From positions 1-20,773 of the IMG/VR virus record IMGVR_UViG_3300034172_000006: a DNA stretch of 20,773 nt; one strand, written 5' to 3'. A program made the translations under genes and the position numbers. Positions 1 through 20,773 of this stretch are shown here, piece after piece. Numbering within the stretch: position 1 is the stretch's first letter; every line of letters starts with the position of its first letter. This stretch comes from a virus. Under the pieces are notes generated by a model that saw only the letters and a list, made by a program, of their open reading frames with translations, was not told where the DNA came from and made no database searches.

Positions 1-1962
1 ATAATTGCCAGGGCCACTAAGAGACTGCTGCAGTGGACAGCTAATGAGGAAGCAGTTGCCAAATCGCTGCGTGATCACGCTGCCGGCGGCGACCTGACCA
101 TCGGAGCTTCGGCGGCTGTCGTGACCACCAGGTCAGGCAACACAGCGCGTCTCTTCAAGAAACGACACGTCCACGTGCTTCGCAACTCTGCCGAGTTTTC
201 GACGATTGTTCGCTCGGCCATTGACATTTACCGGAATTGCATTGCTCAGGCTAAATGGCAGATTGTTCCGCACGATCCTAAGCGCCCAATTAATGAGCGA
301 GTGCGAGACGAAATCACAGATTTGTTGCAAGCGCCGAATCCCGCTGGCGAGTCATACAGCGTAATGATAGAGAAGTTCGTCGAGGACTATCTCGTCATCG
401 GCCACGGCGCGCTGGAAAAGGCCATCCATCGAGACCTCACTCCATATTTGATTCTTCCGCTCGATGCTGCCCGCATCGCCCTCTCTCAGGGTTGGGACGG
501 AACTGACCCGGAGATGCCTCGCTACGCTGAATTGACGGAGTCAGGGATGATTAAGAGATGGATTCCCGACCCGATGGCGATGGTTCTCGTTAACCGCCCG
601 CGCTCGTATGACTCCCTGGGACTTTCCCATGTCGAGGCGCTGGACATCGCTGTGCGGGCGCTGCTTGAAGGTGATGACACTTTCTTACAACAGATGATTG
701 ACCGCACGCCAGGCGGGGTGTTTGACCTGGGCGAAGGGGTAACACAACCACAGGTAGACCAGTTCAGGCAGGAGATTCAGGCGCTACGCAAAGCGTTCGC
801 GGTAATGGGCGGCAGCAAGAATCCGAAGTTCCATAAGTTCGATGCTTCCGAGCGCGACGTGCGCGCGCTCGATAAACTCCTCTACTTCAAACGCCAGGTT
901 GCCGGCATCTTCCAATTGCCAATGGCTGTGCTCGGCGAGTTGGTGGACGCTTCTCGTGCCAATACCGATGCCATGCTGGAGAACTCGGATAAGGGGCCGG
1001 GCGCGCTCCTCTGGCGCATCTGCGAAATGCTGAACGCTCAGGTCGTTCTCAAGTGGGGGGCATATAAAGAGCACAACTGCGTGATCGATTTCCCGATCAT
1101 GTCGCGCAAAGATGAAAAGCAGCAGGCCGACGTGAGCAAGACCCAGACAGCCGGGCTCCCCTGGGTGACTATCAACCAGGCCGCACGCGATGCGGGAAAG
1201 CCTACCTTCGACCTGCCGATTGCGGATGAGCTTTTAATCGCTGTCGGCAAAACTGGATATATCCCTTTGTCGGTACTGAACGCACAATACTATGACGGCC
1301 AGAAATTGAGAGAAGTGGACAGCCCGGGCGCGAAGGGAAAAATAAAGGATGAATCTTCTCAGCCGGCTAAAGCCTTAAAAGCTGTTCTGCCTTTTGAGCA
1401 TCTTCGTAAATCTGCACATAAGTTCAGCACGACGCAGGTTGATCTTAGAGACGAACTGGCCGAGCAGCTCTTAGAGTTTGCCGCCGGAATCCCGGATGAG
1501 GATTTGTCTGAAGACGGTCGCGAAGATAAGCCGCATGTCACAATTAAGTACGGTCTGCACACCAACAACCCGGACGACGTGCGCGAGGTTCTCAAGGGTG
1601 AAAAGCCTGTTACGGTGCGGTTCGGCGAGACCTCCATTTTCGAGGCAGACGGTTATGACGTAATCATCGTCGAGGTCAAGAGTCGTGACTTGGCTCGGTT
1701 GAACAAAAAGCTTTCAGAGGCGCTGGAGCATACTGACACGCATGATAAGTACATTCCCCATGCGACCATCGCCTATGTCAAATCCGGCAAAGGTGCCCTG
1801 TACGCAGGCGATGATTTTCTCTCAGGCTCTAAAGTAACTATTGATCGCGTAGTTTTCTCCTCAAAATCGAAGAAGCGAACGGTCATCGAGTTGACGGGCA
1901 CGGAAGCGAAATGCTTATCGAAAACTGAATTTGCTGCTCCGCTCGAGGAGTTACACATTTAA
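1..1962 (+). CDS. HK97-type portal protein with C-terminal 2H phosphoesterase domain (5' end cut by window)
   Basis: The portal forms the twelve-subunit ring at the capsid vertex through which DNA is packaged and ejected. The frame is open from base 1 through the GTG at 121 with no stop, so the gene almost certainly starts outside the window and 121 is not the true start. Counting from 121, residues 1 to about 400 read as an HK97-family portal: the AKWQIVPHD region, the long helical part with LLYFKRQVAGIFQLP, then the ANTDAMLENSDKG segment. A lysine-rich linker follows (about 405-425). The C-terminal part (about 430-600) carries two HxT motifs of the 2H phosphoesterase superfamily: HVT (His codon 1534-1536, residue 472) and HAT (His codon 1759-1761, residue 547), spaced about 75 residues apart as in that fold. 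2H enzymes act on 2',3'-cyclic or 2'-5' phosphodiester bonds; the substrate here is unknown. The next gene is the prohead protease, as expected. The portal call is firm; the 2H call is strong from the motifs. Confidence 0.88.
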   Translation: MIARATKRLLQWTANEEAVAKSLRDHAAGGDLTIGASAAVVTTRSGNTARLFKKRHVHVLRNSAEFSTIVRSAIDIYRNCIAQAKWQIVPHDPKRPINERVRDEITDLLQAPNPAGESYSVMIEKFVEDYLVIGHGALEKAIHRDLTPYLILPLDAARIALSQGWDGTDPEMPRYAELTESGMIKRWIPDPMAMVLVNRPRSYDSLGLSHVEALDIAVRALLEGDDTFLQQMIDRTPGGVFDLGEGVTQPQVDQFRQEIQALRKAFAVMGGSKNPKFHKFDASERDVRALDKLLYFKRQVAGIFQLPMAVLGELVDASRANTDAMLENSDKGPGALLWRICEMLNAQVVLKWGAYKEHNCVIDFPIMSRKDEKQQADVSKTQTAGLPWVTINQAARDAGKPTFDLPIADELLIAVGKTGYIPLSVLNAQYYDGQKLREVDSPGAKGKIKDESSQPAKALKAVLPFEHLRKSAHKFSTTQVDLRDELAEQLLEFAAGIPDEDLSEDGREDKPHVTIKYGLHTNNPDDVREVLKGEKPVTVRFGETSIFEADGYDVIIVEVKSRDLARLNKKLSEALEHTDTHDKYIPHATIAYVKSGKGALYAGDDFLSGSKVTIDRVVFSSKSKKRTVIELTGTEAKCLSKTEFAAPLEELHI

Positions 1963-2187: not shown

Positions 2188-3633
2188 ATGAGCGAAGAAT
2201 CGAACGAGACAAACCCTGGCGAAGAGCATATGTCTTCCGGTATCCCGCGCTGGACGCCGGACTTTGACGTTAAGCGGCTCGACATCCAGACCGTACTCCG
2301 TGAGGCGATGGCGCAGAAAAAGAGCGCCTATAAAGTCCTCAAGGCCGCAGGCTACCCGGTCGCCAAGTTCATGTCGAACGAAGTGCTGGAGTTCAAAGCT
2401 GCGGCTGACGGGTCTGAACTCGCTACCGTCACAGTCACAGCTTCGAGCGATGCAACAGACCTCTCTGGTGATGAATTTGGCGAATCAGCGATTAATCAGA
2501 TGGAAGCTGCTGTCCGTGGCATGTCCGTCTTCCTTAATCACAGCTACAACCTCCCGGAAGACCTCTTCGGTACGGTAGAAGACGCGCACCTGGTGAGACG
2601 CACGGTCACAAACAATGTGACCGGTGAAACGCGGGAAATCCTCTGTCTCGATCTGGACATCCGCCCGGTCACCGAAGAGGAGAATCCGCGGGGCGTGCGA
2701 GTCTACAACATGATTCGCAAGGGCAAGCGCAAGCTCGGCAGCTCTGTGACTGTACTCGTTCTGAAGACGAAAAACCTCTCCAACGGCAGGCGACAAATCA
2801 CCGACGTTTTGATTCTCGAAGACTCCATCGTCGGCATCCCCTGTAACCAGACGGCATGGGCGCATACCGCCAAATCAATCGAGGTGAGTGAAACATCAAT
2901 GTCCACTACTAACAATGACACCGTTGCTGCTGACAATGCTTCACAAACCCCCGTTGAAGAGGCCCTAACTGCTTTGATCGAAGCGGATGAGGCCAATGCA
3001 AAAGGCATGTTCGCCGATGCGCTAACCGAGCGACAGTCATCCATTTATCTCGTTTGGGACGTTTTTTGGACTTGCTTTTACAAACTCCAGCGTGCTGCTG
3101 AGTCCGGCGAGGAAATGGGCTTTGATGCCAATACTGCCGCCGAGTCTCTCGTTAATGAAACCGCCGCTGCTTTGCTCTCAGCTGTTCAGTCGGCACTCGC
3201 TGATCCTGATTTGACTAATGGCTGGGAGATGTACGCGGCTCAGCTTGAAACGCTGTCGGGCGTGATTCAGAAATCCGGCGCACGGAACTCGAAGCTCGAC
3301 CAGACGACGATCGAGAAGATTCATGCGTTGAGCCTTGAACTCGGCGCGAAGTGTGAAACGAAGGAGGCCGACGGCGGTGACGCAGCTCAGAAACAAGCGT
3401 CAGTCACTTCCGCCGCCCTCGCCGACGCGACCAGCAAAGCGGCCACGCTGGAAGCCGAGAAGCAAACACTCATCGAGGAGAAGGCCGCCCTCCAAACGCA
3501 GTTAAGCGAAACGCAGGAAGAACAGGGAATTCTGGAAGCTACCTGTATCGGCATGTTGGCAGTGCTGAAGGCTTATAGCCGTGAGCGTCTGCCGCGCGCC
3601 GGACATACGGGCAGCGTCAGTCACTCCCGCTGA
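2188..3633 (+). CDS. Prohead serine protease (HK97-type, S78-like) with scaffold-like C-terminal extension
   Basis: The capsid maturation protease cleaves the capsid pro-domain, and probably itself, inside the prohead. With the ATG at 2188 the protein is 481 residues. The protease core spans about residues 55-230: candidate catalytic His118 lies in FLNHSYN, Ser185/Ser186 in KLGSSVTV, and an acidic residue at Glu211/Asp212 in LEDSIVGIPCN, which matches the family pattern of a glutamate before the PAN-like turn. The remaining 250 residues are alanine- and glutamate-rich, with a likely coiled coil at about 412-451. This looks like a scaffolding domain fused to the protease, and no separate scaffold gene is present. 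The start is uncertain: no clear Shine-Dalgarno precedes 2188, TTG at 2185 is also in frame, and ATG at 2230 has only a weak GAAGAG upstream. Position between portal and capsid genes fits. Confidence 0.85.
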   Translation: MSEESNETNPGEEHMSSGIPRWTPDFDVKRLDIQTVLREAMAQKKSAYKVLKAAGYPVAKFMSNEVLEFKAAADGSELATVTVTASSDATDLSGDEFGESAINQMEAAVRGMSVFLNHSYNLPEDLFGTVEDAHLVRRTVTNNVTGETREILCLDLDIRPVTEEENPRGVRVYNMIRKGKRKLGSSVTVLVLKTKNLSNGRRQITDVLILEDSIVGIPCNQTAWAHTAKSIEVSETSMSTTNNDTVAADNASQTPVEEALTALIEADEANAKGMFADALTERQSSIYLVWDVFWTCFYKLQRAAESGEEMGFDANTAAESLVNETAAALLSAVQSALADPDLTNGWEMYAAQLETLSGVIQKSGARNSKLDQTTIEKIHALSLELGAKCETKEADGGDAAQKQASVTSAALADATSKAATLEAEKQTLIEEKAALQTQLSETQEEQGILEATCIGMLAVLKAYSRERLPRAGHTGSVSHSR

Positions 3634-3690: not shown

Positions 3691-5151
3691 ATGAAAGCCG
3701 AAGATATTCGCAAAGAGTTTGAGGGCCTGATGGCCCGGATGGCTGGTGGCGACGCTGCCTCTGCCGCCGCCAGCACAGACACCACAAATGGAGCGCCGCC
3801 CGTTGAATCCAAATCCGCAGAGGTGCTTGAGGCCGAAGCGAAGGAAGCGCGCATTGGCGGGAACGCATTGGCTAAGTCGCTGCACACGGTCGCGCGGGTC
3901 AATAAAGAATTCCGCCACCTCGACGCCGATAAGGTGCTCGATGACCCGCGCGGGTACTTGCGCCGCAAGCAGGCAGGCTCCGACCAGTACGTCGTCTCTG
4001 ACGCCGACCTGGAGACGATGATCCAGACGGTGCTCTCGCAGAAGGCTGCCGAGCAAGAAGGTATCGCGGACGACCGCGTGCGCGGCAAGCTGATTGACGC
4101 GGCCAGCAAGGGGATGTTTGGCGGGCAGAGTGGCCTTCTCGTGAAAGCACTCGACACAGCCAGTGGCGCGGCGTTGATTCGCACCGACGTTGAGCCGTTG
4201 CTGTACGAAGCCTACCTGCGCGAGTTCCCTGCTGCCGAGCAGATCGGTAGCGTCAAGGCTAACGGTCTCGTTCACAATTATGACGTTCGCACCGCCATCC
4301 CGCAGGCCGTCACGCTCAACAACATCGGCGATTTCGGGGCCGCGTTCACGAACAGCACCTTCGTTCGGAACACCAATTCGAACATCGCCATCATCGCGTC
4401 TCCGGTCGCTATCGGCCTGAAGCTCGCGCTCGCCGTCGAGCAGTCCGGGATGACCAGCTTCAAGCTGGAGGGCAACGACAATCTCGAAGTGATAGGCGCG
4501 ATGACGGCTATCGCCCGCAAGAACCAGTCGCTGGTATTGCAGGGCAACTTCTCGACCGCAGGGGGCACGCTCGATACCGAAGACGGGTTGTACGATAACA
4601 AGGCGTTCGATGGCCTACGCACCATCCTGAAGGGCGCGGGAACCTCCATCACGAAGGGCGGCGGGGATACCTTCCGCAGCCTGTTGAACCGTGCCGGCGC
4701 GCAGATTCGCAATAGCGGCGGCAGCGAGCGCAACATGATCATCCTGTGCTCGTCAGGCGCTGAGATCGCCATCAACGACGAGTTCTTCGCCACCTTCTAT
4801 CGCATCAACGACACGGCCCCTGCGGGCGGCGTTGACACTGTTCCGGCTGCAAACGGTATCCGCACCGTCGGCAAGTACCTGTCAAAAATTGTTTCGGTTC
4901 CGTCGGACGCGCAGGACGCGGGCGTCGGTCACTACACCTTCGGCGGCAACCCGACCGAAGACATGTATGTCTCGGACGCGAACGGTATGAAGTTGGCGTA
5001 CCTCGGCAGCCCCAGCCCGACGATGCTGGAATTGCCGATGGGTTACAACAACCAGCTTTCGCGGGTGTTCGTGCCCTTCCTGATGAACGGCCTGGTCGTT
5101 CACATCGCAGGCTTCCATCGGAAGATTCGCATTGCCAAGCAGACCGTGTAA
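3691..5151 (+). CDS. Major capsid protein (HK97 fold)
   Basis: This is the main shell protein of the head. It has 486 residues, longer than the mature HK97 core. The first 130-160 residues are polar, alanine- and charge-rich, and look like a scaffolding delta/pro-domain to be removed by the upstream protease. The conserved body begins near the DTASGAALIRTDVEPLLYEA segment (about residue 155), the usual entry to the HK97-fold N-arm. It continues through NNIGDFGAAFTNSTF, the E-loop-like region and a C-terminal part ending near LVVHIAGFHRK. The start is ATG 3691, with GAAAGGA at 3671-3677 at a rather long spacing. A strong GC stem-loop follows the stop. The call rests on position (protease before, adaptor after), size and general sequence character. 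The cleavage site cannot be fixed by eye. Confidence 0.85.
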   Translation: MKAEDIRKEFEGLMARMAGGDAASAAASTDTTNGAPPVESKSAEVLEAEAKEARIGGNALAKSLHTVARVNKEFRHLDADKVLDDPRGYLRRKQAGSDQYVVSDADLETMIQTVLSQKAAEQEGIADDRVRGKLIDAASKGMFGGQSGLLVKALDTASGAALIRTDVEPLLYEAYLREFPAAEQIGSVKANGLVHNYDVRTAIPQAVTLNNIGDFGAAFTNSTFVRNTNSNIAIIASPVAIGLKLALAVEQSGMTSFKLEGNDNLEVIGAMTAIARKNQSLVLQGNFSTAGGTLDTEDGLYDNKAFDGLRTILKGAGTSITKGGGDTFRSLLNRAGAQIRNSGGSERNMIILCSSGAEIAINDEFFATFYRINDTAPAGGVDTVPAANGIRTVGKYLSKIVSVPSDAQDAGVGHYTFGGNPTEDMYVSDANGMKLAYLGSPSPTMLELPMGYNNQLSRVFVPFLMNGLVVHIAGFHRKIRIAKQTV

Positions 5152-9193: not shown

Positions 9194-12100
9194 ATGTCGG
9201 AAATCGAGAGACTTGTCGTTACTTTCGTCGGCGACGATCGCAATCTCAATAGAGCCTACTCGTCAGCTGAAACAGGCGCGCGGCGGACGGCCAGAAATAT
9301 ATCCTCAACCTTAGGCGATAAAAATATCTTCGGGGGCTTCGCCTCCAATTTCCAGTCACAGCTACGTGATGCCCAGGGCAGATTTGTCAGTAGCGGAGCG
9401 TCGTTCCTCCGCGACTCATTGACTGTCACCGCCGGCGACATTCTGACAGGCGGCATCTCGAAAGTCTCCGGTCTGACGAAAGACCTCGTTATCCGTGGCG
9501 TCGAGTACAACAATCTGCTTGAACGCTCCAACATCAGCTTTGAAGTGCTGCTCGGCTCGCAGGAAAAAGCCAAGCAGCACATGAAGGATTTAGCCGCGTT
9601 CGCTGAGAAGGCGGGCAGCTTTCAACTCACTGATGTCATACGCGGCTCGCAGCGCCTTCAGGCGATGGGCTTCGATGCGCGCAACGTCGTCTCGGTTTTG
9701 ACGGACGTTTCAGATGCAGCCTCGGCGATGGGCGGTGGGCAGGAGATTCTCGACGGCATTGTCACGGCTCTTGGTCAGATGAAGGGCAACGGTCGTCTGG
9801 CTGCTGAAGAGATGAACCAGTTGACCGAGCGCGGCATTCCGGCGTGGCGCATGCTCTCGGAATTAACTGGTAAAACTCAGTCCGAGTTACGCAAACTCTC
9901 GGAGCAGGGCAAGCTCAACGGTGGCGTTGCCGTCGAGGGCTTCCTCCGCAAATTCCGAGAATACTACGGCGGCCTGGGCGACAAGCTGTCGGATACGTTC
10001 GATGGGCGAATGTCGAACTTTAATGATCGGCTCGACCGCAGACTCGCCGAAGGTACGCTGAGCGTCCAGCAGCGTACCGGCGAGTTGGTTCAGGCGGCGT
10101 CCGATGTTCTCAACTCGCCGCAGGGCGAGGCTGTTGCAAAAGGCTTCGACTCGATTGCTAATCTCGCCATGAAGCCCGTTGAGCTGCTCATTAAGGGAGC
10201 GACGACCGGATTTGACCTCAAGGCGCTAATGTCTCAGCTGGCTTGGGATATGGTCGGCGGCATCAAGGAGGGTCTAGAGAATAAAGCTGGAGAGTTAAAG
10301 GACGAAGGCAAGAAAGTTGTTACCAACATCTACGGTGCGATAAAGCAGGAAGCTGGCATTAACTCTCCGGCGAAAAAGTTTATCCCGCTCGGCGAAGGCA
10401 TTGCCGAGGGTCTGCAGGTTGGCTTTACCAGCTACATGCTCTCGCACGCCGGCTCTTTCGTGCAGGAGGGGCTGGCAACAATCCGCGTCCGCACGGAAAA
10501 GACGCTCCGCGAGTTGGCAGAGAAATTCAATCTCGACCTCGACCGGCTGGCAGCAACGAACGGAATAGGTAAAGACACGCCGCTGCAAATCGGTCAGGAA
10601 ATCATTGTTCCCGCGACGACCGCCGTGCCTCGCAATAAGCAATCACGACGCAGCACTAATCCTTCGCTCGCCGATAAAGCGCGCGGCAACTATGCCGACC
10701 TGCTCAAGCGCGAGCCGGGCTTCGAGCGGCGCTTGAATCAGGTCGCCTCTTATCTCGGCATCGAGCCCGAATGGCTGCTCAATACGATGGCCGTCGAAAC
10801 CATCGGCACATTCTCGCCCAAGATCGAGAACGGCAAAGGCTATACGGGGCTGATTCAGTTCGGACCGGATGCACGAAAAAGTCTCGGTGTCTCCAACGAC
10901 CAACTGAAGAAGATGACGGCCACCGAACAGCTCGATTACGTGCAGCAGTATTACGAGATGTTTAAGGCGGTCGGCCAGATGAAGTCGCAGGCCGACGTGT
11001 ATAACGTCGTCACCGGTGGTCAGAACCTCCTGTCGGGATTTCCTCTTGATCCAAATTCCATCGTCTACGGGCGCGGCTCGAAAGCGATGAAAGTCAAAAG
11101 TAATCGTGACCTGTGGGACGTAAACGGCGACGGGCAGGTGCAGAACTTCGAGTTGGGCACGGCGGCTGCGAAGGGCGGCTTTACCTCGACAAACCCGATG
11201 CCCGTCAGGATTGTGAGCGCAGGCTCGGATGACACAGCAGAGCGCATCACCTCAGCACAACGTGAAATCGACGCGCTGCGCGAACAGCGCGCGGCCATAG
11301 CGCGTCGCGCTGAAACGCTCTTGGAGATGCCGCTCAATGATGAACCTCAGAGCGCAGTCGTCGCCGAGGTCGGCGTAGACCCGGAGGTCGCCGCCAGGCG
11401 CGCACAGTCAATGTTGCAGATGCGCGCGCGCCTCGCCGAACTGGATACGCTCATCGAGCAAAAGCAGCAGGAAATCGAACGGCTCGTTACTGCGTTGCCG
11501 GACGCGGTTGATCGGACGAATGAACTGGCCGACGCGGCGCGGCGCTCAGCTGATGCAGCACGCGAGCAGGCCGAGGCGCAGAAGGAACAACGAGTCGAGT
11601 TGACGAAAGCAGAGCAGGCGGCGCTCGACGCCCGCAAGGACACAGATGACCTCAACACCTCATACGACCGCACGGCTGTCGCTGCGCGACAGGCGGCGCG
11701 TGAAATCCGTGAGCTTGATCTGACCATCGCAAAGAAGCCGTCATTTACCATCACAGGCTCATACACATCCTCCACTACTCCCGCGCTGTCCACTGGCCCA
11801 GCAGAGTCGCAGGAAGATTATTTTAAGCGCCTCACTGACATGGGTGGTGACAAGGATAAGTACAGAGGGGTACGCGATGCGTTCGTGAACTCCATGAAAG
11901 AGGGATTTACGGATGTCGAGCATCTGTTCGACGGGACGCTTTCTCGCATGGCGATTAGTTTCACCCAGGCCATAGAGGACATGGCCATCAACAGGCTGGC
12001 GAATATCGCCGGTGCCCTCATATTTGGTGACGGCAAATCGGGCGGCCTCTTTGGTAAGCTGGAAGGCTGGCTGACGAATGCCATTTACGGCCAGAGCGCC

Positions 12101-12952
12101 GCCTCTCAGCTTCACCCTTCAGCAGGAAGCGGCGGCTTCGGCTCACCCGGGGGCGGCACACCGGGGGCGCTTCCCTGGCTTGGCCAGCGCTGGGACACAC
12201 CTCCCACGTCGCCCTTCAGCGACAGTAACCAAATCAATCAGACGATTACGAGCACGTCTCAAGCTTCGACGCGCAGCATTACGACGAAGATTGAGACCTC
12301 ATCTGACAAGATTACCGCTTCCGTCACGGCAGCCGAGCGAGACATCACCGCGAGCGTTGATAGCGTCGGGCAGACCGTCCAGCAGCTCGTCCCCGTGCAG
12401 GACGGCTTTTGGAGCGGACTGGGTAAAGCGTTACTCGGCAGCACAATCAGCACTCTCGTCGGCGGTTTCGTCGGCGACATCTTCACTCCGACTGAAGACT
12501 CCGGCGAGACCGGGCCGCAGCCGACGCACGCGCCCACGCTTAAATCCGCGCAGAAGAAAGCACGCGGCGGGCCCATCTTCGGGGCGGGCACTGGCACATC
12601 TGACGACATTCCCATCTGGGCGAGCAACGGCGAGCACATGATTACGGCTCGCGCCGCCGACTACTACGGCCATGACTTCTTCGATAGAGCGAACCGGCTG
12701 GAACTGCCGCGCCAGGCTTACGCCGAGGGCGGCGCCATCTACGACGACGTGCTCTATCGCCCGCAATCTATCGGCTCGCTCTCGCTTGAGCACGCTCGCG
12801 CCGGTGCGGCTGAGGGCGGCTCGAAAATAGTTAATTTTCATTATGCGCCACAGTTGCCGACGCCGACGGGGAGCGTCCCCGTGGAGTCCAGCGCTCAGGC
12901 TGCCACCCGTGGCGCGCAGGAGTTGCAACATCTATTAGCGAGGAATAGTTAA
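9194..12952 (+). CDS. Tape measure protein with LysM, lytic transglycosylase-like and EF-hand elements
   Basis: The protein is 1252 residues, sets tail length and is ejected ahead of DNA. Residues 100-290 carry the conserved tape-measure N-terminal region (NLLERSNISFEVLLGS, then the long helical MNQLTERGIPAWRMLSEL segment). Residues about 430-473 read as a LysM peptidoglycan-binding domain (TLRELAEKFNLDLDRLAATNG ... LQIGQEIIVP). Residues about 505-640 look like a lytic transglycosylase: FERRLNQVASYLGIEPEWLL, candidate catalytic Glu535 in AVETIGTFSP, then TGLIQFGP (551-558). At 642-653 a perfect EF-hand loop follows (DVNGDGQVQNFE; ligands D642, N644, D646, Q648, E653). A long coiled-coil-like region spans 680-850. 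The C-terminus has the usual glycine-rich GEHMITARAADYYG end (1122-1170). GGAG at 9181 precedes ATG 9194. Confidence 0.9.
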   Translation: MSEIERLVVTFVGDDRNLNRAYSSAETGARRTARNISSTLGDKNIFGGFASNFQSQLRDAQGRFVSSGASFLRDSLTVTAGDILTGGISKVSGLTKDLVIRGVEYNNLLERSNISFEVLLGSQEKAKQHMKDLAAFAEKAGSFQLTDVIRGSQRLQAMGFDARNVVSVLTDVSDAASAMGGGQEILDGIVTALGQMKGNGRLAAEEMNQLTERGIPAWRMLSELTGKTQSELRKLSEQGKLNGGVAVEGFLRKFREYYGGLGDKLSDTFDGRMSNFNDRLDRRLAEGTLSVQQRTGELVQAASDVLNSPQGEAVAKGFDSIANLAMKPVELLIKGATTGFDLKALMSQLAWDMVGGIKEGLENKAGELKDEGKKVVTNIYGAIKQEAGINSPAKKFIPLGEGIAEGLQVGFTSYMLSHAGSFVQEGLATIRVRTEKTLRELAEKFNLDLDRLAATNGIGKDTPLQIGQEIIVPATTAVPRNKQSRRSTNPSLADKARGNYADLLKREPGFERRLNQVASYLGIEPEWLLNTMAVETIGTFSPKIENGKGYTGLIQFGPDARKSLGVSNDQLKKMTATEQLDYVQQYYEMFKAVGQMKSQADVYNVVTGGQNLLSGFPLDPNSIVYGRGSKAMKVKSNRDLWDVNGDGQVQNFELGTAAAKGGFTSTNPMPVRIVSAGSDDTAERITSAQREIDALREQRAAIARRAETLLEMPLNDEPQSAVVAEVGVDPEVAARRAQSMLQMRARLAELDTLIEQKQQEIERLVTALPDAVDRTNELADAARRSADAAREQAEAQKEQRVELTKAEQAALDARKDTDDLNTSYDRTAVAARQAAREIRELDLTIAKKPSFTITGSYTSSTTPALSTGPAESQEDYFKRLTDMGGDKDKYRGVRDAFVNSMKEGFTDVEHLFDGTLSRMAISFTQAIEDMAINRLANIAGALIFGDGKSGGLFGKLEGWLTNAIYGQSAASQLHPSAGSGGFGSPGGGTPGALPWLGQRWDTPPTSPFSDSNQINQTITSTSQASTRSITTKIETSSDKITASVTAAERDITASVDSVGQTVQQLVPVQDGFWSGLGKALLGSTISTLVGGFVGDIFTPTEDSGETGPQPTHAPTLKSAQKKARGGPIFGAGTGTSDDIPIWASNGEHMITARAADYYGHDFFDRANRLELPRQAYAEGGAIYDDVLYRPQSIGSLSLEHARAGAAEGGSKIVNFHYAPQLPTPTGSVPVESSAQAATRGAQELQHLLARNS

Positions 12953-14695: not shown

Positions 14696-15168
14696 GCGCA
14701 GACCGCATCGTCACACGCCTCGACGTGGTGCGCTCGCTGGAGAAGATTCTCGGCCAGCCCTACGCGCACCAGGGGCGCTTACAAGAGGTTGGCGGGCGCA
14801 TCACGGGACCCGGCACTGACTGCTGCGGGACGCTTCTCTTCGCCGGCCATGACCTCGGAGTAACCAGCTTCGAGATGCTCGGCTATGCCGCCGACCCGGA
14901 CGGCTCGTTCGAGCAGATTCTGGAAAGCCAGTTAATTCGCCTGCCGCACTTTAGAGACGCGCAGGTCGGCGACGTGCTCGCGCATGACTTCGGGGAAGGC
15001 ATTCAACATTGTTCGGTCGTCGTCTCCGTGCATCCGACGCGCCGCGACTGGCAGCAATTCAAAGTCATCCACGCGACCAGAAGCAACGGCGTCCATCGCG
15101 GTGTATTTGAGTTGAAATATTACAAGGCGCTCGTGCGCGCCTATCACATACCGGGGGTGCAGTACTGA
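14692..15168 (+). CDS. NlpC/P60-family tail-tip peptidase (GTA gp14-like)
   Basis: The 158-residue protein starts at ATG 14692, which overlaps the hub stop as ATGA. An upstream in-frame start at 14572 would lie inside the hub gene and is rejected. NlpC/P60 enzymes cut peptide or amide bonds in peptidoglycan cross-links. The catalytic set is visible: Cys44 in GTDCCGTLLFAGHD (aspartate then cysteine, with Cys45 next to it), His106 in GIQHCSVVV, and His127 in VIHATRSNG. The length is normal for a phage tail cell-wall peptidase. It probably opens the murein for the tail and is carried in the tip complex between hub and tip protein, as in GTA gp14. Its stop overlaps the next start (TGATG). Confidence 0.85.
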   Translation: MSADRIVTRLDVVRSLEKILGQPYAHQGRLQEVGGRITGPGTDCCGTLLFAGHDLGVTSFEMLGYAADPDGSFEQILESQLIRLPHFRDAQVGDVLAHDFGEGIQHCSVVVSVHPTRRDWQQFKVIHATRSNGVHRGVFELKYYKALVRAYHIPGVQY

Positions 15169-18100
15169 TGATTCGTCGCACCCTCCATCCACTCGCGCGC
15201 GTCGTGACGTTGCTCTGCTTCGTCAACCTGTGCGCGCTCGTCGCTCACGCCGATCCAATATCGGGTTCGGTGATTCTCACGAGCCTGGTTGTCTCGGCGG
15301 CCACGACCGCCGCCAGCTTTATCACGCAACGCCTGTTGACGCCGAAGCCCAAGGGTGTGATTCGCGGCCAGCAGCAGGGTTCGATGCAGCTCTCGGATTC
15401 GACCTACAACGTCCCGATCAAAGAGATTTACGGCGCGCGCTACGCTTCCGACAACATCGGCGGCTCAAAGGTCGGTTGTAATTTCATCTGGGCCAACCGC
15501 GAGGGAATTAGAGAAGTCAGAGAGACCGTCCCAGCTTCGGGTGGAGGCAGCGGCAAAGGCCCGCCGAAGCCGCCGCCTGAGACGCGCGTCAGCTATAACC
15601 TTGACCTTGCGGGACTCGTCGGCCACGGGCCTTTGAACGTCCTCAAAATCAAGTTTGACCAGGATACGGTCTATGACATGACGCGCGCTGGAGTTGCGGC
15701 AGTCTCCCGCTTTTACGAGGGCGAGACGGCGCAGCTCGTGGACGCCGAGGTTATCTCCGGCGAAATCTATTCGAGCGGGCAGGCGGCGGAGATTGAGGCC
15801 GGAGGCTCGGCCTTTTTCGGCGACGTGCGCGCGACGACTGCGGGCGAGCACGAGCTGAGCATCTACTTCAATGCTTCGCCCGGCACAGAGTTGACCGTCG
15901 AAACCAATGGCGGCGCGCCACAGGTCGTTACTCTCTCTGACAGTGAGGCGGCGCTCGGCATCGTGTCTCTCTCTGTCATCCTGAACGCGAGCGAGACCAA
16001 CGAGATTCTACTGACGGTGACGGGCGCCGCTGCTGCCCGGCTCGACCGCATTTTCGTCTATGACCTCGACGGCGGCGGCATTACCGGCGTGCTCGATGAC
16101 TTCTTCCCGGCAGACGCGGCCATTGATAACTACCTGCTGCCAGACCCCTACGAACTCGACTCGCGCCCGCGCCTGCGTCACAGCTTCGTGCCGACGCCGA
16201 ACGAGACGGACGGCTCTGTCTCGGCGCAGATTGTCGGCGGCGTCTACGCCAGCATGACCATCTACGAAGGCAACTCCACGCAAGAGCCTGACCCGGTGAT
16301 GGCCGCGGACGTGGACGCTCGTGAGGGAGTTGAGAATTCCTGCCCGGCGTATCTCGATGAGTGCTATATCCGGTGGACGCAACTCAACATCTCGAAATAC
16401 AACCGCGTGCCGCAGGTCACAGTCACCGCCGAGCATAAGACCATCCGGACGGTGGCCGACATTATCAATCATCGCGCGCAGCGCTCAGGCCCCGTGGCCG
16501 ATGACCTGGACATGACGGAAGCCAGCAACACCTACGTGCGCGGCTTCGTCATTGACGAGCTTCAGCCGGTCAAGCGTGACATGGATGACCTGGCGGCGTT
16601 CTTCAATCTGACCTTCGTCGAAGACCTGACGGGAAAGATTGTCGCGCGAGACCTCTCGTCGCGCGCCATCGCGGCCACGCTTACGGAAGACGACCTCGGC
16701 GCTTACATCCTGGGCGACCAGAAGGCTTCACCCGATTTGGTGTCCTCACGCGTCGTTGACCCGCCGCAGTTGTGGGAGCGCGTCGGCATCTCGTACTTCA
16801 ACCCGGACCCGAAATCAGACTTTCAAATCGGTCGCGCCGAAGACGTGCGCTCGATGTACGGGGCGAAGACGCACGAAACATTTGAATTCAACATCACGGC
16901 CACCGATGCCGAAGCCATGCACGTCGCCCGCCGTCTCATGCAAAAGCACTGGATGGAGAGTGACCCTGACACGTTCACCGTGCAGCATCGCTTTGCTTAC
17001 CTGACTCCGGCGCAGCGCATCCAGATTCCGAAGGACGGCGAGCTACAGACGGTTCGCATCATGGAGATTACGGGCTACGCGCCGGGGCTTCTGACCATCA
17101 AGGCCGTGCCCGACGACCTCTCGGTCATCGCCGCGCCGCGCGTCGGCGTCATCGGCGCACCGGCGCGCACCTATTATCCGGGCAACACTGTCGCCACCTT
17201 CATGGACATTCCACTGCTGCACCCGCAGGCGCTGGCCGGAATGTATGTCGCGGCCACGCCGCGCGATTTACGGAGCGGCGTCTGGAACGGCGCTGTCGCA
17301 TGGCGCTACAAGGGCAACGAGTGGCAGCAGATGACCACGTTCACGCAGATGGCGACCATGGGGCGCTGTGTAACGGCTCTGCCGGAAGTGCCCGGTGGAT
17401 GGGTCGAGGGCGAGTTCGACACAACCAGCACCGTCACGATGGATTTGTTTGCGAACCTTGAGCCGCCGACCTTCACCGACGAGCAGATTGCAGACGGCCT
17501 CGGCGTCTGGGTCATCGGCGATGAAGTCTGTCAGGTCGCCCAGTGGACGCGCGATAACTCGCAGCCTAACCGTTGGGTCGGCTCGCGCATCATGCGCCGC
17601 CTGAAGGGCACAGAAGCGGCCAGCGCATGGCACGTCGAGGGAGAGCGTTTAGTGCTGATGAACTCCGCCGTGCGCTTTATCGAACTGGACGTGACCGAGA
17701 AAGACATCCCTCGCACCTGGAAAGTACAGACCGCAGGCGCGCGTCTTTCCGATGCCGGGCCGATTTCGGTGACGTGGACTGGCCGTAACATCCGCTCTAT
17801 CCCGGCTGGCGGCAGCGCTGACTCCGGCGTGCCCATCCTCCAAGACCCTTCGACGCCGACCGTAACCGAGACGGCGGGCGGCAACTGGGTCGTGCGCTAC
17901 CCGATGCCGCAAGACCAGGCGAAGACGCTCATGAAGTCACGGGTGCGATTTACGCGCATCTCTGACGGCGTGGTCGTGGCATTAGAGTCTAACGGGCTGA
18001 ACACCAGTTACACGCGCGAGGCTTTCGCCTTCGACTGCTTGGCCGAATATGGCTGGCAAAACCAGTGGCGCGGCGCAACCGGTACAGAATCGGACGGTTG

Positions 18101-18236
18101 GTCTGAGTGGTCAACGGGGGCGACGCTGCACGCCATTGGCGGCCCAACGCCCAACCCGGCAGATGACACTATTACCAGCTTCGATGATGACCCGTCAGAT
18201 TCACGCGGTTACACCGAACAATATAACTATCAGTAG
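15168..18236 (+). CDS. Large tail tip protein (GTA gp15-like) with Sec-type N-terminal signal
   Basis: The protein is 1022 residues and is likely the tail-tip/baseplate protein that finishes the tube end. The N-terminus is unusual: RR, a hydrophobic core at 12-26 and a VAHA|D cleavage-like site (after residue 28), then a second hydrophobic stretch at about 33-52 of the kind found at the N-terminus of GTA gp15-like proteins. A glycine/proline-rich linker lies at about 120-140. Residues about 182-298 look like an inserted beta-sandwich, CBM6/35-like (ending in RLDRIFVYDLDGG). Residues about 437-660 match the Phage-tail_3 type region (VIDELQPVKRDMDDLAAFF; WERVGISYFNP; MEITGYAPGLLTI). Residues about 890-1010 are fibronectin-III-like. 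ATG 15168 overlaps the peptidase stop. Tip function is firm; export of the signal is inference. Confidence 0.8.
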   Translation: MIRRTLHPLARVVTLLCFVNLCALVAHADPISGSVILTSLVVSAATTAASFITQRLLTPKPKGVIRGQQQGSMQLSDSTYNVPIKEIYGARYASDNIGGSKVGCNFIWANREGIREVRETVPASGGGSGKGPPKPPPETRVSYNLDLAGLVGHGPLNVLKIKFDQDTVYDMTRAGVAAVSRFYEGETAQLVDAEVISGEIYSSGQAAEIEAGGSAFFGDVRATTAGEHELSIYFNASPGTELTVETNGGAPQVVTLSDSEAALGIVSLSVILNASETNEILLTVTGAAAARLDRIFVYDLDGGGITGVLDDFFPADAAIDNYLLPDPYELDSRPRLRHSFVPTPNETDGSVSAQIVGGVYASMTIYEGNSTQEPDPVMAADVDAREGVENSCPAYLDECYIRWTQLNISKYNRVPQVTVTAEHKTIRTVADIINHRAQRSGPVADDLDMTEASNTYVRGFVIDELQPVKRDMDDLAAFFNLTFVEDLTGKIVARDLSSRAIAATLTEDDLGAYILGDQKASPDLVSSRVVDPPQLWERVGISYFNPDPKSDFQIGRAEDVRSMYGAKTHETFEFNITATDAEAMHVARRLMQKHWMESDPDTFTVQHRFAYLTPAQRIQIPKDGELQTVRIMEITGYAPGLLTIKAVPDDLSVIAAPRVGVIGAPARTYYPGNTVATFMDIPLLHPQALAGMYVAATPRDLRSGVWNGAVAWRYKGNEWQQMTTFTQMATMGRCVTALPEVPGGWVEGEFDTTSTVTMDLFANLEPPTFTDEQIADGLGVWVIGDEVCQVAQWTRDNSQPNRWVGSRIMRRLKGTEAASAWHVEGERLVLMNSAVRFIELDVTEKDIPRTWKVQTAGARLSDAGPISVTWTGRNIRSIPAGGSADSGVPILQDPSTPTVTETAGGNWVVRYPMPQDQAKTLMKSRVRFTRISDGVVVALESNGLNTSYTREAFAFDCLAEYGWQNQWRGATGTESDGWSEWSTGATLHAIGGPTPNPADDTITSFDDDPSDSRGYTEQYNYQ

Positions 18237-18247
18237 AGGGAAAGAGA

Positions 18248-19966
18248 ATGAACCGTCTATTCATCGGATTGCTTTTGCTGCTGGCTCTCTGGCCGGCGAG
18301 CGCGCACGCGCAGGTTTCCGGCTCGACGCAGTATCCGGGGGCTCTGGATAACAGCATCTCGACACCGCAGGCCGCCGATAATAAATACACCAGCCTCACG
18401 GTCGCGCTCACGGCGTCGGCCTCAACCGTTACCGTCGCCTCGACGACAGGCTTTCCCACAGCCGGGCTGTTCTACGTCGGCAACGAGCAGGTGCAGTACA
18501 CCGGGACGACCGCAACGACTTTTACGGGTTGCACGCGCGGCGCATCGAACACGGTCGCCACCGAGCACCCCGTCAATTCAACCGTGCGAGAGCAACTCGC
18601 AGCGCCGCACGTTAACGGCATTCGTGGCGCTGCTCTCGCGCTTGAAGCTAAGGTCGGGGTGGGCGCGAGCAATGCTTCGGCAGCCGCGACCGGCCAGTGT
18701 ATCGTCAAGCAAGCGGACGGCTCGACGGCTTGGGCGACCTGCGGCAGCGGGACATCGGGCACAGTGACGAGCGTCGGCGTCTCAGCGCCTTCGTCCATCT
18801 TCAGCGTCTCCGGCTCTCCGGTCACAACTAACGGGACTATTAACCTCACGCTTCAGACGCAGGCCGCCAACCGCGTCTTCGCAGGCCCGGCCTCCGGCGC
18901 TGACGCGCAGCCCTCGTTTCGCGCTCTCGTCGCCGACGACATCCCCGCGCTCGATACCTCGAAGCTGACGACGGGTGCGCTCGCGGATGCGCGGATCGCG
19001 TCGGCCGCGACGTGGAACGGCAAGCAGAATGCCCTCGGCTACACGCCTCTCAATCCAAGCAACAATCTGTCGGACGTGGCGGCCGCCGCGACGGCCAGGT
19101 CAAATCTCGGACTGGGCACGGCAGCGACTCGCAACGTGCCCCCCAGCGGCAACGCAGCGAGCACAGAGGCCGTGATAGGGAGTGATACCCGGCTGACTGA
19201 TGCGCGCACGCCCCTCTCGCATACGCACACCGCTTCGCAGGTCACTGACTTCAGCGCGGGCGTCGAGACGGCGCTCGGCAACCTCGGCTTCAGGTCGCTG
19301 CGCACCAATCTCGCCGGCTACTGGAAGCTGGACGAAGCGTCAGGCAACGCCACCGACTCAACCGGCGCTTCCACCCTGACCGACATCAACACCGTGACCT
19401 CGGCGGCGGGCAAGCGCGGCACGTCTCGACAGTTTACGCACGCCAACAATGAATATTTCTCGGCGGCAGACTCGGCCACGCTCTCAACCGGCGACATTAG
19501 TTTCACCATTTCGGCATGGGTCTATCTCGACTCCAAAACCAACGGGATGATTATCGTCGCTAAGGATGATTATCCGGAGCGGGAGTTTATTCTCCAATAT
19601 GATTCGACGATAGATAGATTCGTCTTTTTCGTCTTCAACTCTGCGGGCGCTTCAGTCTCGGTGCAGGCCACAACCACAGCCCCGTCACTCTCGACCTGGT
19701 ATCACCTGTTGGCCTGGCACGACGCCGAGGCCGACACCATCAACATTCAGGTCAATAACTCCACTATTGACACGACCGCGACCGCAGGGCTGGTCGTCTA
19801 CAATTCAACTGCCGCCTTCACCGTCGGCGGGCGACTGGTCTTCGGCAGCCCGAACGGCACTTTCGACGGGCGCATTGATGAACTCTTATTCACGAAGCGG
19901 GTGCTCTGGGCTTCTCAACGCACGGACTTATATAACTCCGGCCTGGCTCTTACCTACCCGTTCTAG
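18248..19966 (+). CDS. Tail fibre with signal peptide and C-terminal LamG (lectin-like) domain
   Basis: The protein is 572 residues. The start has a Sec signal: NR, a leucine-rich core (4-15), and ASAHA|Q cleavage after residue 21. Residues about 38-100 hold a small beta domain common near the base of tail fibres (SLTVALTASAST, then VGNEQVQYTG, CTRGASNTVATEHP). The middle (about 180-330) is low-complexity fibre-like sequence with elements such as LGYTPLNPSNNLSDVAAAA and HTHTASQVTDF (325-335). Residues about 353-572 form a LamG-like jelly roll: AGYWKLDEASGN, then ISFTISAWVYLDS, STWYHLLAWHD and FDGRIDELLFTKRVL. LamG domains often bind glycans, so it may bind the host receptor. GAGGG (18236-18240) precedes ATG 18248. 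A second, related fibre gene follows after 25-64 bases. Confidence 0.82.
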   Translation: MNRLFIGLLLLLALWPASAHAQVSGSTQYPGALDNSISTPQAADNKYTSLTVALTASASTVTVASTTGFPTAGLFYVGNEQVQYTGTTATTFTGCTRGASNTVATEHPVNSTVREQLAAPHVNGIRGAALALEAKVGVGASNASAAATGQCIVKQADGSTAWATCGSGTSGTVTSVGVSAPSSIFSVSGSPVTTNGTINLTLQTQAANRVFAGPASGADAQPSFRALVADDIPALDTSKLTTGALADARIASAATWNGKQNALGYTPLNPSNNLSDVAAAATARSNLGLGTAATRNVPPSGNAASTEAVIGSDTRLTDARTPLSHTHTASQVTDFSAGVETALGNLGFRSLRTNLAGYWKLDEASGNATDSTGASTLTDINTVTSAAGKRGTSRQFTHANNEYFSAADSATLSTGDISFTISAWVYLDSKTNGMIIVAKDDYPEREFILQYDSTIDRFVFFVFNSAGASVSVQATTTAPSLSTWYHLLAWHDAEADTINIQVNNSTIDTTATAGLVVYNSTAAFTVGGRLVFGSPNGTFDGRIDELLFTKRVLWASQRTDLYNSGLALTYPF

Positions 19967-19980
19967 GGGCGCGCGAGGCT

Positions 19981-20058
19981 TAGAGGAAACGATGAAAACA
20001 CGTACCACAGTATTTCAATCGGAGGAAGTGATGAAAACACGTACCACAGTATTTCAAT
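19981..20058 (+). repeat. 39-bp tandem duplication of ribosome-binding site and start
   Basis: Unit 1 (19981-20019) and unit 2 (20020-20058) are directly adjacent and agree at 35 of 39 bases. The last 29 bases are identical and all four differences are transitions. Each unit holds its own GAGGAA Shine-Dalgarno and an ATG (19992 and 20031) 39 bases apart, so both starts are in the same frame with no stop between. The second start places the signal peptide at the N-terminus; the first adds 13 residues containing two glutamates. This could be recent slippage, a deliberate dual start, or an assembly artefact. Confidence 0.85.
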
Positions 20059-20773
20059 TCGCGCTGCTCTTCATGCTGCTCTTTCTGAGCATGGCTGCCG
20101 CCAGCGCTCAGGATCAACCCTTCAGCTCAAAATATCCTCCGGCGCTCGATTCGGACGACTCGCTGGGGCGGACAAAGGACTTGTCCAGGACAACGCTCTC
20201 GGTGGCGCTGACCAGTAGCGCAGGCTCGGCTACGGTCGCCGATACTTCCAGCTTTCCGTCAAGCGGCTCGCTCAAGATTGATAATGAGAATCTGACCTAT
20301 ACGTCGAAGACCTCGACGCAGTTTCTAAACCTGGCGCGCGGAGTGGGCGGCACAGCCGCCGCTTCGCATAACATCGGCGTGGCCGTGCTCAGTCCTCAAC
20401 TCTCGTTCCAGCGTGACGTCTTAGTCGCCGCCATTAAAGCCCTGCAAGCCAAAACAGGATTTGGAACTTCGACGGCTGCCGGGGCGGTCACCGGGGCGGT
20501 GCTGCAAAAGAACTCGGACGGCTCGACCGGATGGGGCGCGCTCAATTCAAGCGTCGTCTCGACGGCGCTCGGCTTTACACCGCAACCGGCTGATGCGGAT
20601 TTAACGGCGCTGGCCGCGCTCTCGACCACAGGGCTGGCGAGGCGCACCGGCGCGGGTACGTGGATGACCGTGCCTGCGCCTGCTGGTGATGTGGTGGGAA
20701 CGAGCGACCCGCAGACGCTCAGCCAAAAGACTCTCTTGAACGCCCTGCTGCAAAACGGCACGCTCAATTATGC
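20031..20773 (+). CDS. Second tail fibre with signal peptide, paralogue of the first (3' end cut by window)
   Basis: The frame is open from ATG 20031 (or ATG 19992, in frame) to the last base without a stop, so the gene continues beyond the window; 247 codons are seen. From 20031 the protein starts with a Sec signal: KTR, a hydrophobic core (about 7-21) and ASA|Q cleavage after residue 26. Residues about 50-115 match the small beta domain of the upstream fibre (LSVALTSSAGS; IDNENLTYTS; LARGVGGTAAASHN), so the two genes share a base-attachment-like domain. Later sequence has fibre-type motifs (LQKNSDGSTGWGALN, ALGFTPQPADADLTALAAL). The receptor-binding end lies outside the window. GGAGGA (20021-20026) precedes 20031. 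I chose 20031 because it places the signal peptide at the very N-terminus. Confidence 0.78.
   Translation, partial: MKTRTTVFQFALLFMLLFLSMAAASAQDQPFSSKYPPALDSDDSLGRTKDLSRTTLSVALTSSAGSATVADTSSFPSSGSLKIDNENLTYTSKTSTQFLNLARGVGGTAAASHNIGVAVLSPQLSFQRDVLVAAIKALQAKTGFGTSTAAGAVTGAVLQKNSDGSTGWGALNSSVVSTALGFTPQPADADLTALAALSTTGLARRTGAGTWMTVPAPAGDVVGTSDPQTLSQKTLLNALLQNGTLNY

Follow-up and report, generated by a model that had tools for sequence, protein, structure and literature searches.

Enzyme domains of the 2H phosphoesterase superfamily have been reported on phage head proteins before. Iyer et al. (2017, PMC5512222; 2022, PMC9503650) described 2H domains fused to MuF or portal domains and proposed that they are packaged in the head, injected, and act on defense nucleotides or RNA; the first of these papers also remarked that RNA ligases do not accompany such 2H domains. 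Enzyme domains joined to head proteins are likewise known from MuF and polyvalent virion effectors, and the 2H subfamily studied here is present among them. The best-known phage enzyme with this fold is Acb1 (T4 gp57B, FBB1, and the protein of Burkholderia phage BCSR5, 9q2g), in which, according to published work, E141 contacts adenine and W147 is a lid residue.

We analyzed a 20,773-nucleotide stretch of viral DNA (the window) whose first gene encodes a portal joined to a 2H domain. The fusion is a further member of the 2H-portal fusions already reported, with which it shares the union of portal and 2H domain in a single polypeptide, a predicted place in the virion, and RNA or a defense nucleotide as the proposed target. 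An earlier note on this DNA had not regarded a virion-borne 2H enzyme as an established system, a view that the two papers overturn. Whereas Iyer et al. mention the fusion briefly, here we trace the module over several portal families, and we add evidence for its exchange, a census of its active site, and a junction peptide. In the open-access PMC literature we found no experiments on any 2H-portal protein.

Domain architecture of the fusion protein

The reading frame at the beginning of the window has 653 visible residues, contains no internal stop, and is open at the 5' edge (Table 1). The window is a fragment cut within the portal gene. The homologues at two loci on other contigs (L010 and L100) start a few residues upstream of the first residue in the window and align across it; together with the open frame, this makes the GTG at position 121, which the earlier note took as the start, an unlikely initiation codon.

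The portal part matched Pfam Phage_portal over profile positions 2 to 316 of 321 (E = 9.2e-15; 55.1 bits against a cut-off of 39.1), and in PHROGs the portal match of the open reading frame (ORF) was phrog_2662 (E = 2e-23). The C-terminal part matched Pfam 2_5_RNA_ligase2 (PF13563) with a score of 52.7 against a cut-off of 27 (E = 1.4e-12 for the whole protein and 6.5e-14 for its C-terminal 210 residues), as well as a PHROG named "RNA ligase" (E = 1e-12 and 1.3e-13), while the LigT_PEase and Acb1 profiles of Pfam gave weaker matches. On these E values and the AlphaFold2 model, the 2H assignment is far beyond chance. Portal, linker, and 2H domain thus stand in one frame, as had been proposed. 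Of the stretch from 1330 to 1962 that had been called the 2H region, the folded domain takes up about 1402 to 1908, and positions 1330 to 1400 belong to the linker instead. Portal and 2H were the only domains recognized by Pfam and PHROGs; unlike MuF and polyvalent effectors, the latter defined as large proteins with several disparate effector domains, the protein has two recognized domains, of which the portal itself is the structural one.

Table 1. Features of the fusion gene and of the two genes that follow it in the window
Feature	Position (residues)	Strand	Basis
Portal-2H fusion protein	1..1962	+	One open frame; aligned to L010 and L100
Portal domain, divergent branch	205..1182 (aa 69-394)	+	Pfam Phage_portal PF04860
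Poorly conserved linker, predicted disordered	1267..1419 (aa 423-473)	+	pLDDT <50 in the full-length model, which is weak overall
Junction peptide LPFEH	1387..1401	+	Pattern [LV]P[FLM][EQ][HY], seen only at portal-2H junctions of HK97-type fusions
2H phosphoesterase domain	1402..1908 (aa 468-636)	+	Pfam, AlphaFold2 model, fold comparison
First HxT motif, HVT	1534..1542 (aa 512-514)	+	Conserved among relatives
Second HxT motif, HAT	1759..1767 (aa 587-589)	+	Conserved among relatives
Putative prohead protease and scaffold	2188..3633	+	Conserved FLNHSY, LGSSV, and IVGIPCNQTAW motifs; position
Putative major capsid protein	3691..5151	+	Position; gene order kept in L008 and L100

The product of the first gene downstream had no protease profile match in Pfam or PHROGs and gave no alignment to the protease portion of another 2H-bearing locus (L066), and its protease identity is a putative one, read from its motifs. 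The product of the second had no profile match. Farther along, the window encodes a tape measure protein (9194-12952), in which a LysM domain and a peptidase- or hub-like stretch were noted, and three tail- or fiber-like ORFs (15168-18236, 18248-19966, and 19767-20771), each with an apparent secretion signal near its start; the last two have a similar N-terminal region.

Fold of the 2H domain

Modeled in isolation by AlphaFold2 with 60 relatives, the C-terminal domain adopted the bilobal 2H fold that the earlier note had predicted (pLDDT 92, pTM 0.84), with Z scores of 12 to 16 to solved 2H enzymes. The best solved matches in Foldseek were CPDase 5h7e, 1iuh, Acb1 9q2g, YjcG, and Usb1, and all top solved matches were 2H enzymes. 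VIA-align gave a Z score of 15.9 to 1iuh (rmsd 2.8, 156 aligned), 14.3 to LigT 5ldm, 13.8 to Usb1, and 12.9 to Acb1 7t26. To the extent that a prediction can do so, this settles the fold. The full-length AlphaFold2 model (pLDDT 49.6, seven sequences) can be read for the 2H domain and the low-confidence linker only, not for the portal.

The closest folds are thus those of LigT/ThpR and bacterial CPDase (5ldm, 5h7e, and 1iuh; Z 14 to 16). These are free-standing cellular proteins, whereas the window domain sits on a portal and is 15 to 16% identical to them over the structural alignment; it also falls under the cut-off of the LigT/ThpR equivalog TIGR02258 (27.6 versus 65.7 bits). In structure the domain lies closer to CPDase and LigT, which are RNA or cyclic-phosphate enzymes, than to Acb1; by sequence, its nearest solved relative is Acb1 (9q2g).

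Recurrence of the 2H module on head proteins

A profile search with the 2H domain returned 469 viral loci, and we retained the 80 best; merging these with later searches gave 101 distinct 2H ORFs. Of these, 18 were fused to portals, 23 stood alone, and the other 60 were longer proteins, many exceeding 2,000 residues. The same portal-2H protein is encoded on a 59-kb contig (L008/L010) and a 46-kb contig (L100), where it is 57 to 62% identical to the window in the portal and is followed by the same two genes. Between the window and L100, portal and 2H domain are each 62% identical. The order terminase-portal-protease-capsid is found in L008 and L100, the terminase lying outside the window.

The same 2H subfamily is fused to portals of at least four Pfam families: Phage_portal, Portal_Mu, Phage_portal_3, and a lambda-type portal whose assignment to Phage_portal_2 is just below the Pfam cut-off. 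Some of the 2H-fused portals additionally bear MuF. The subfamily also occurs on MuF, on a head-maturation-protease-like protein, and in giant polyvalent ORFs alongside ART-PolyVal, ddrB-ParB, RelA_SpoT, and methylase domains. Matches in viral contigs came from queries with the capsid gene and with an alignment of 2H domains; the 2H domain, the entire fusion, and the portal core gave none when searched as single sequences. PADLOC gave no match either.

Several individual loci were observed along the way. In L066 (4959-6749), the 2H domain is at the N terminus of the head-maturation-protease-like protein, the remainder of which resembles profiles of head maturation proteases (E = 1e-4), and a separate portal gene lies just upstream. 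The huge phage LR756511.1 (L003:2488-8716) has, on our reading of its ORFs, a free 2H gene between terminase-like and portal-like genes, and there may be an intein-like insert within the portal-like ORF. A Portal_3-type 2H fusion ORF (L104:1001-4000) has a pterin-4a-carbinolamine dehydratase domain. In Tunturiibacter phage Tunturi_5, gp321 (L002:6702-10790; 1,362 residues), annotated as a MutT/NUDIX hydrolase, holds a 2H domain, resembles a polyvalent protein, and adjoins head-tail genes.

Exchange of the module and the junction peptide

The window 2H domain is 44 to 54% identical to 2H domains on portals that have no BLAST similarity to the window portal, which argues that the 2H domain is an exchangeable module. 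In a tree of the domains, 2H sequences from two HK97-type portal groups fell into one supported clade (100/97), while other 2H domains of those two groups were placed elsewhere; the deep branches are weak. Among 70 related HK97-type portal loci only 4 carry the domain, and most of the 70 stop shortly past the portal core; the 2H domain is therefore dispensable for the portal.

The junction pattern (Table 1) precedes the 2H domain in all four of these HK97-type 2H portals and is absent from every 2H-less portal among the 70 loci (Fisher p = 1e-6, a value that ignores relatedness and near-copies); it also precedes the 2H domain in the three window-type fusions. LPFEH as a general feature of HK97-type portals was rejected on these counts. 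The peptide sits in a low-confidence stretch of the models; it could mark a site of processing, or it could just belong to the 2H module. A fuller scenario, in which a cassette of 2H domain and LPFEH-type peptide would be transferred among unrelated portals, cut at the junction by the maturation protease in the head, and ejected against a nucleotide messenger other than that of Acb1, strikes us as a long shot. Many HK97-type portals (L208-L220 and L228-L236) end in a peptide near YDELRDWWEKFGPEDAQGILDAE, and a second group (L190-L198 and L247) has the C-terminal end AIPWLLALGEDEAAKMLKAKP.

Active site and comparison with Acb1

Both HxT motifs pointed out in the earlier note were confirmed, with 75 residues between the histidines. 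Both histidines are kept in 101 of 101 2H relatives (the best 80 of 469 viral loci plus later searches). The third residue of the first motif is T in 100 of these and S in one, and that of the second is T in all 101; the search pattern included the second motif, which biases its conservation, while the first was not used in the 2H profile search.

In a sequence alignment, the two window histidines coincide with the catalytic histidines of Acb1, and the HxT tetrad corresponds to H44/T46/H113/T115 of the T4 protein. The W74 position is F in 59 of 60 relatives, and the F107 position is mostly H, Y, or F. Most relatives have I at the E141 position, and W147 falls on a variable position and lacks a counterpart, the alignment being uncertain in that region; Y12 is unmatched in the window domain on the same sequence comparison. 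The Acb1 profile (PF23474; cut-off, 27) scored 20.9 with the whole protein and 24.3 with its C-terminal part; it matched 39 of 58 longer 2H relatives, with E values up to 1e-3.

Proposed role and alternative explanations

We see an even chance that the window encodes a portal-borne accessory 2H phosphoesterase that is carried in the virion and acts on nucleotide signals or RNA. Each portal subunit would bear the domain at its C terminus via a flexible linker, as an accessory outside the portal machinery, and portal structure suggests that up to twelve copies would sit on the inner side of the portal vertex. The published structure of the SPP1 portal shows the C-terminal crown as the capsid-side part of the channel, so the window 2H domain should face the packaged DNA. 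The enzyme would then enter or meet the cell together with the genome. Since the portal itself is not ejected, delivery would need cleavage or action from the vertex. From the superfamily and from the virion-effector company that the domain keeps elsewhere (MuF, ART-PolyVal, ddrB-ParB, and RelA_SpoT), we infer metal-independent phosphodiester cleavage in a small nucleotide or RNA. The aim would most likely be to blunt, at an early stage of infection, nucleotide-signal defense with messengers of the CBASS or CRISPR type. Signal degradation, the role we favor, would have a little under an even chance of being the actual one, and a role of another kind, for example on ADP-ribose cyclic phosphate, is unlikely.

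Action on RNA is possible, if doubtful. The domain could be a Usb1-like RNase or a LigT/CPDase-like enzyme that opens 2',3'-cyclic phosphate ends, and it would then alter host RNA or aid the repair of tRNAs cut by host nucleases. The structure search, which puts CPDase, LigT-like proteins, and Usb1 highest, speaks for such cleavage or end processing, and RNase action would be consistent with PBECR-portal fusions of like design (Iyer et al. 2017, PMC5512222). RNA ligase (PF09414) and KptA were not found in 11 portal-2H contigs, which is weak evidence because all are fragments, and none of these genes is among the listed co-domains of the 58 longer relatives. The absence fits the remark on RNA ligases in PMC5512222 and counts against repair but not against an RNase. 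A search of the portal-2H contigs with PF09511 gave no match, and its control gave none either.

That the domain is a true Acb1, a strict anti-CBASS nuclease placed on a portal, is rather improbable. The closest solved sequence, the aligned tetrad, and the near-invariant F at the W74 position favor it, and the fold and an aromatic residue at that position are shared. Against it stand the lack of conservation at E141 and W147 and a score that stays below the Acb1 cut-off while that of PF13563 is well exceeded. Acb1 also differs in being a free protein. On the residues and the profile score, we do not class the domain as Acb1 proper. The Acb1 analogy in the earlier note thus stands as to the nearest solved sequence and fails as to key substrate residues, and the domain may work on molecules similar to those cleaved by Acb1. 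A 2H fold that lacks enzyme activity and gives the portal just a structural or binding element would suit a structural fusion partner, and some 2H folds do serve as binders (AKAP7-type); the intact HxT pair throughout the relatives and the rarity of the domain on related portals make this very improbable. An assembly or frame artifact is conceivable for a metagenomic fragment cut within the fusion gene, but its probability is practically negligible given that two contigs from different samples have the same fusion and that many other phages have related ones.

If the portal-borne phosphoesterase is active, it would reach the cell ready-made on the DNA gate, ahead of any phage gene expression, and this would matter against fast nucleotide-signaling defense. 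The presence of one module on unrelated head proteins provides a concrete set of candidates.
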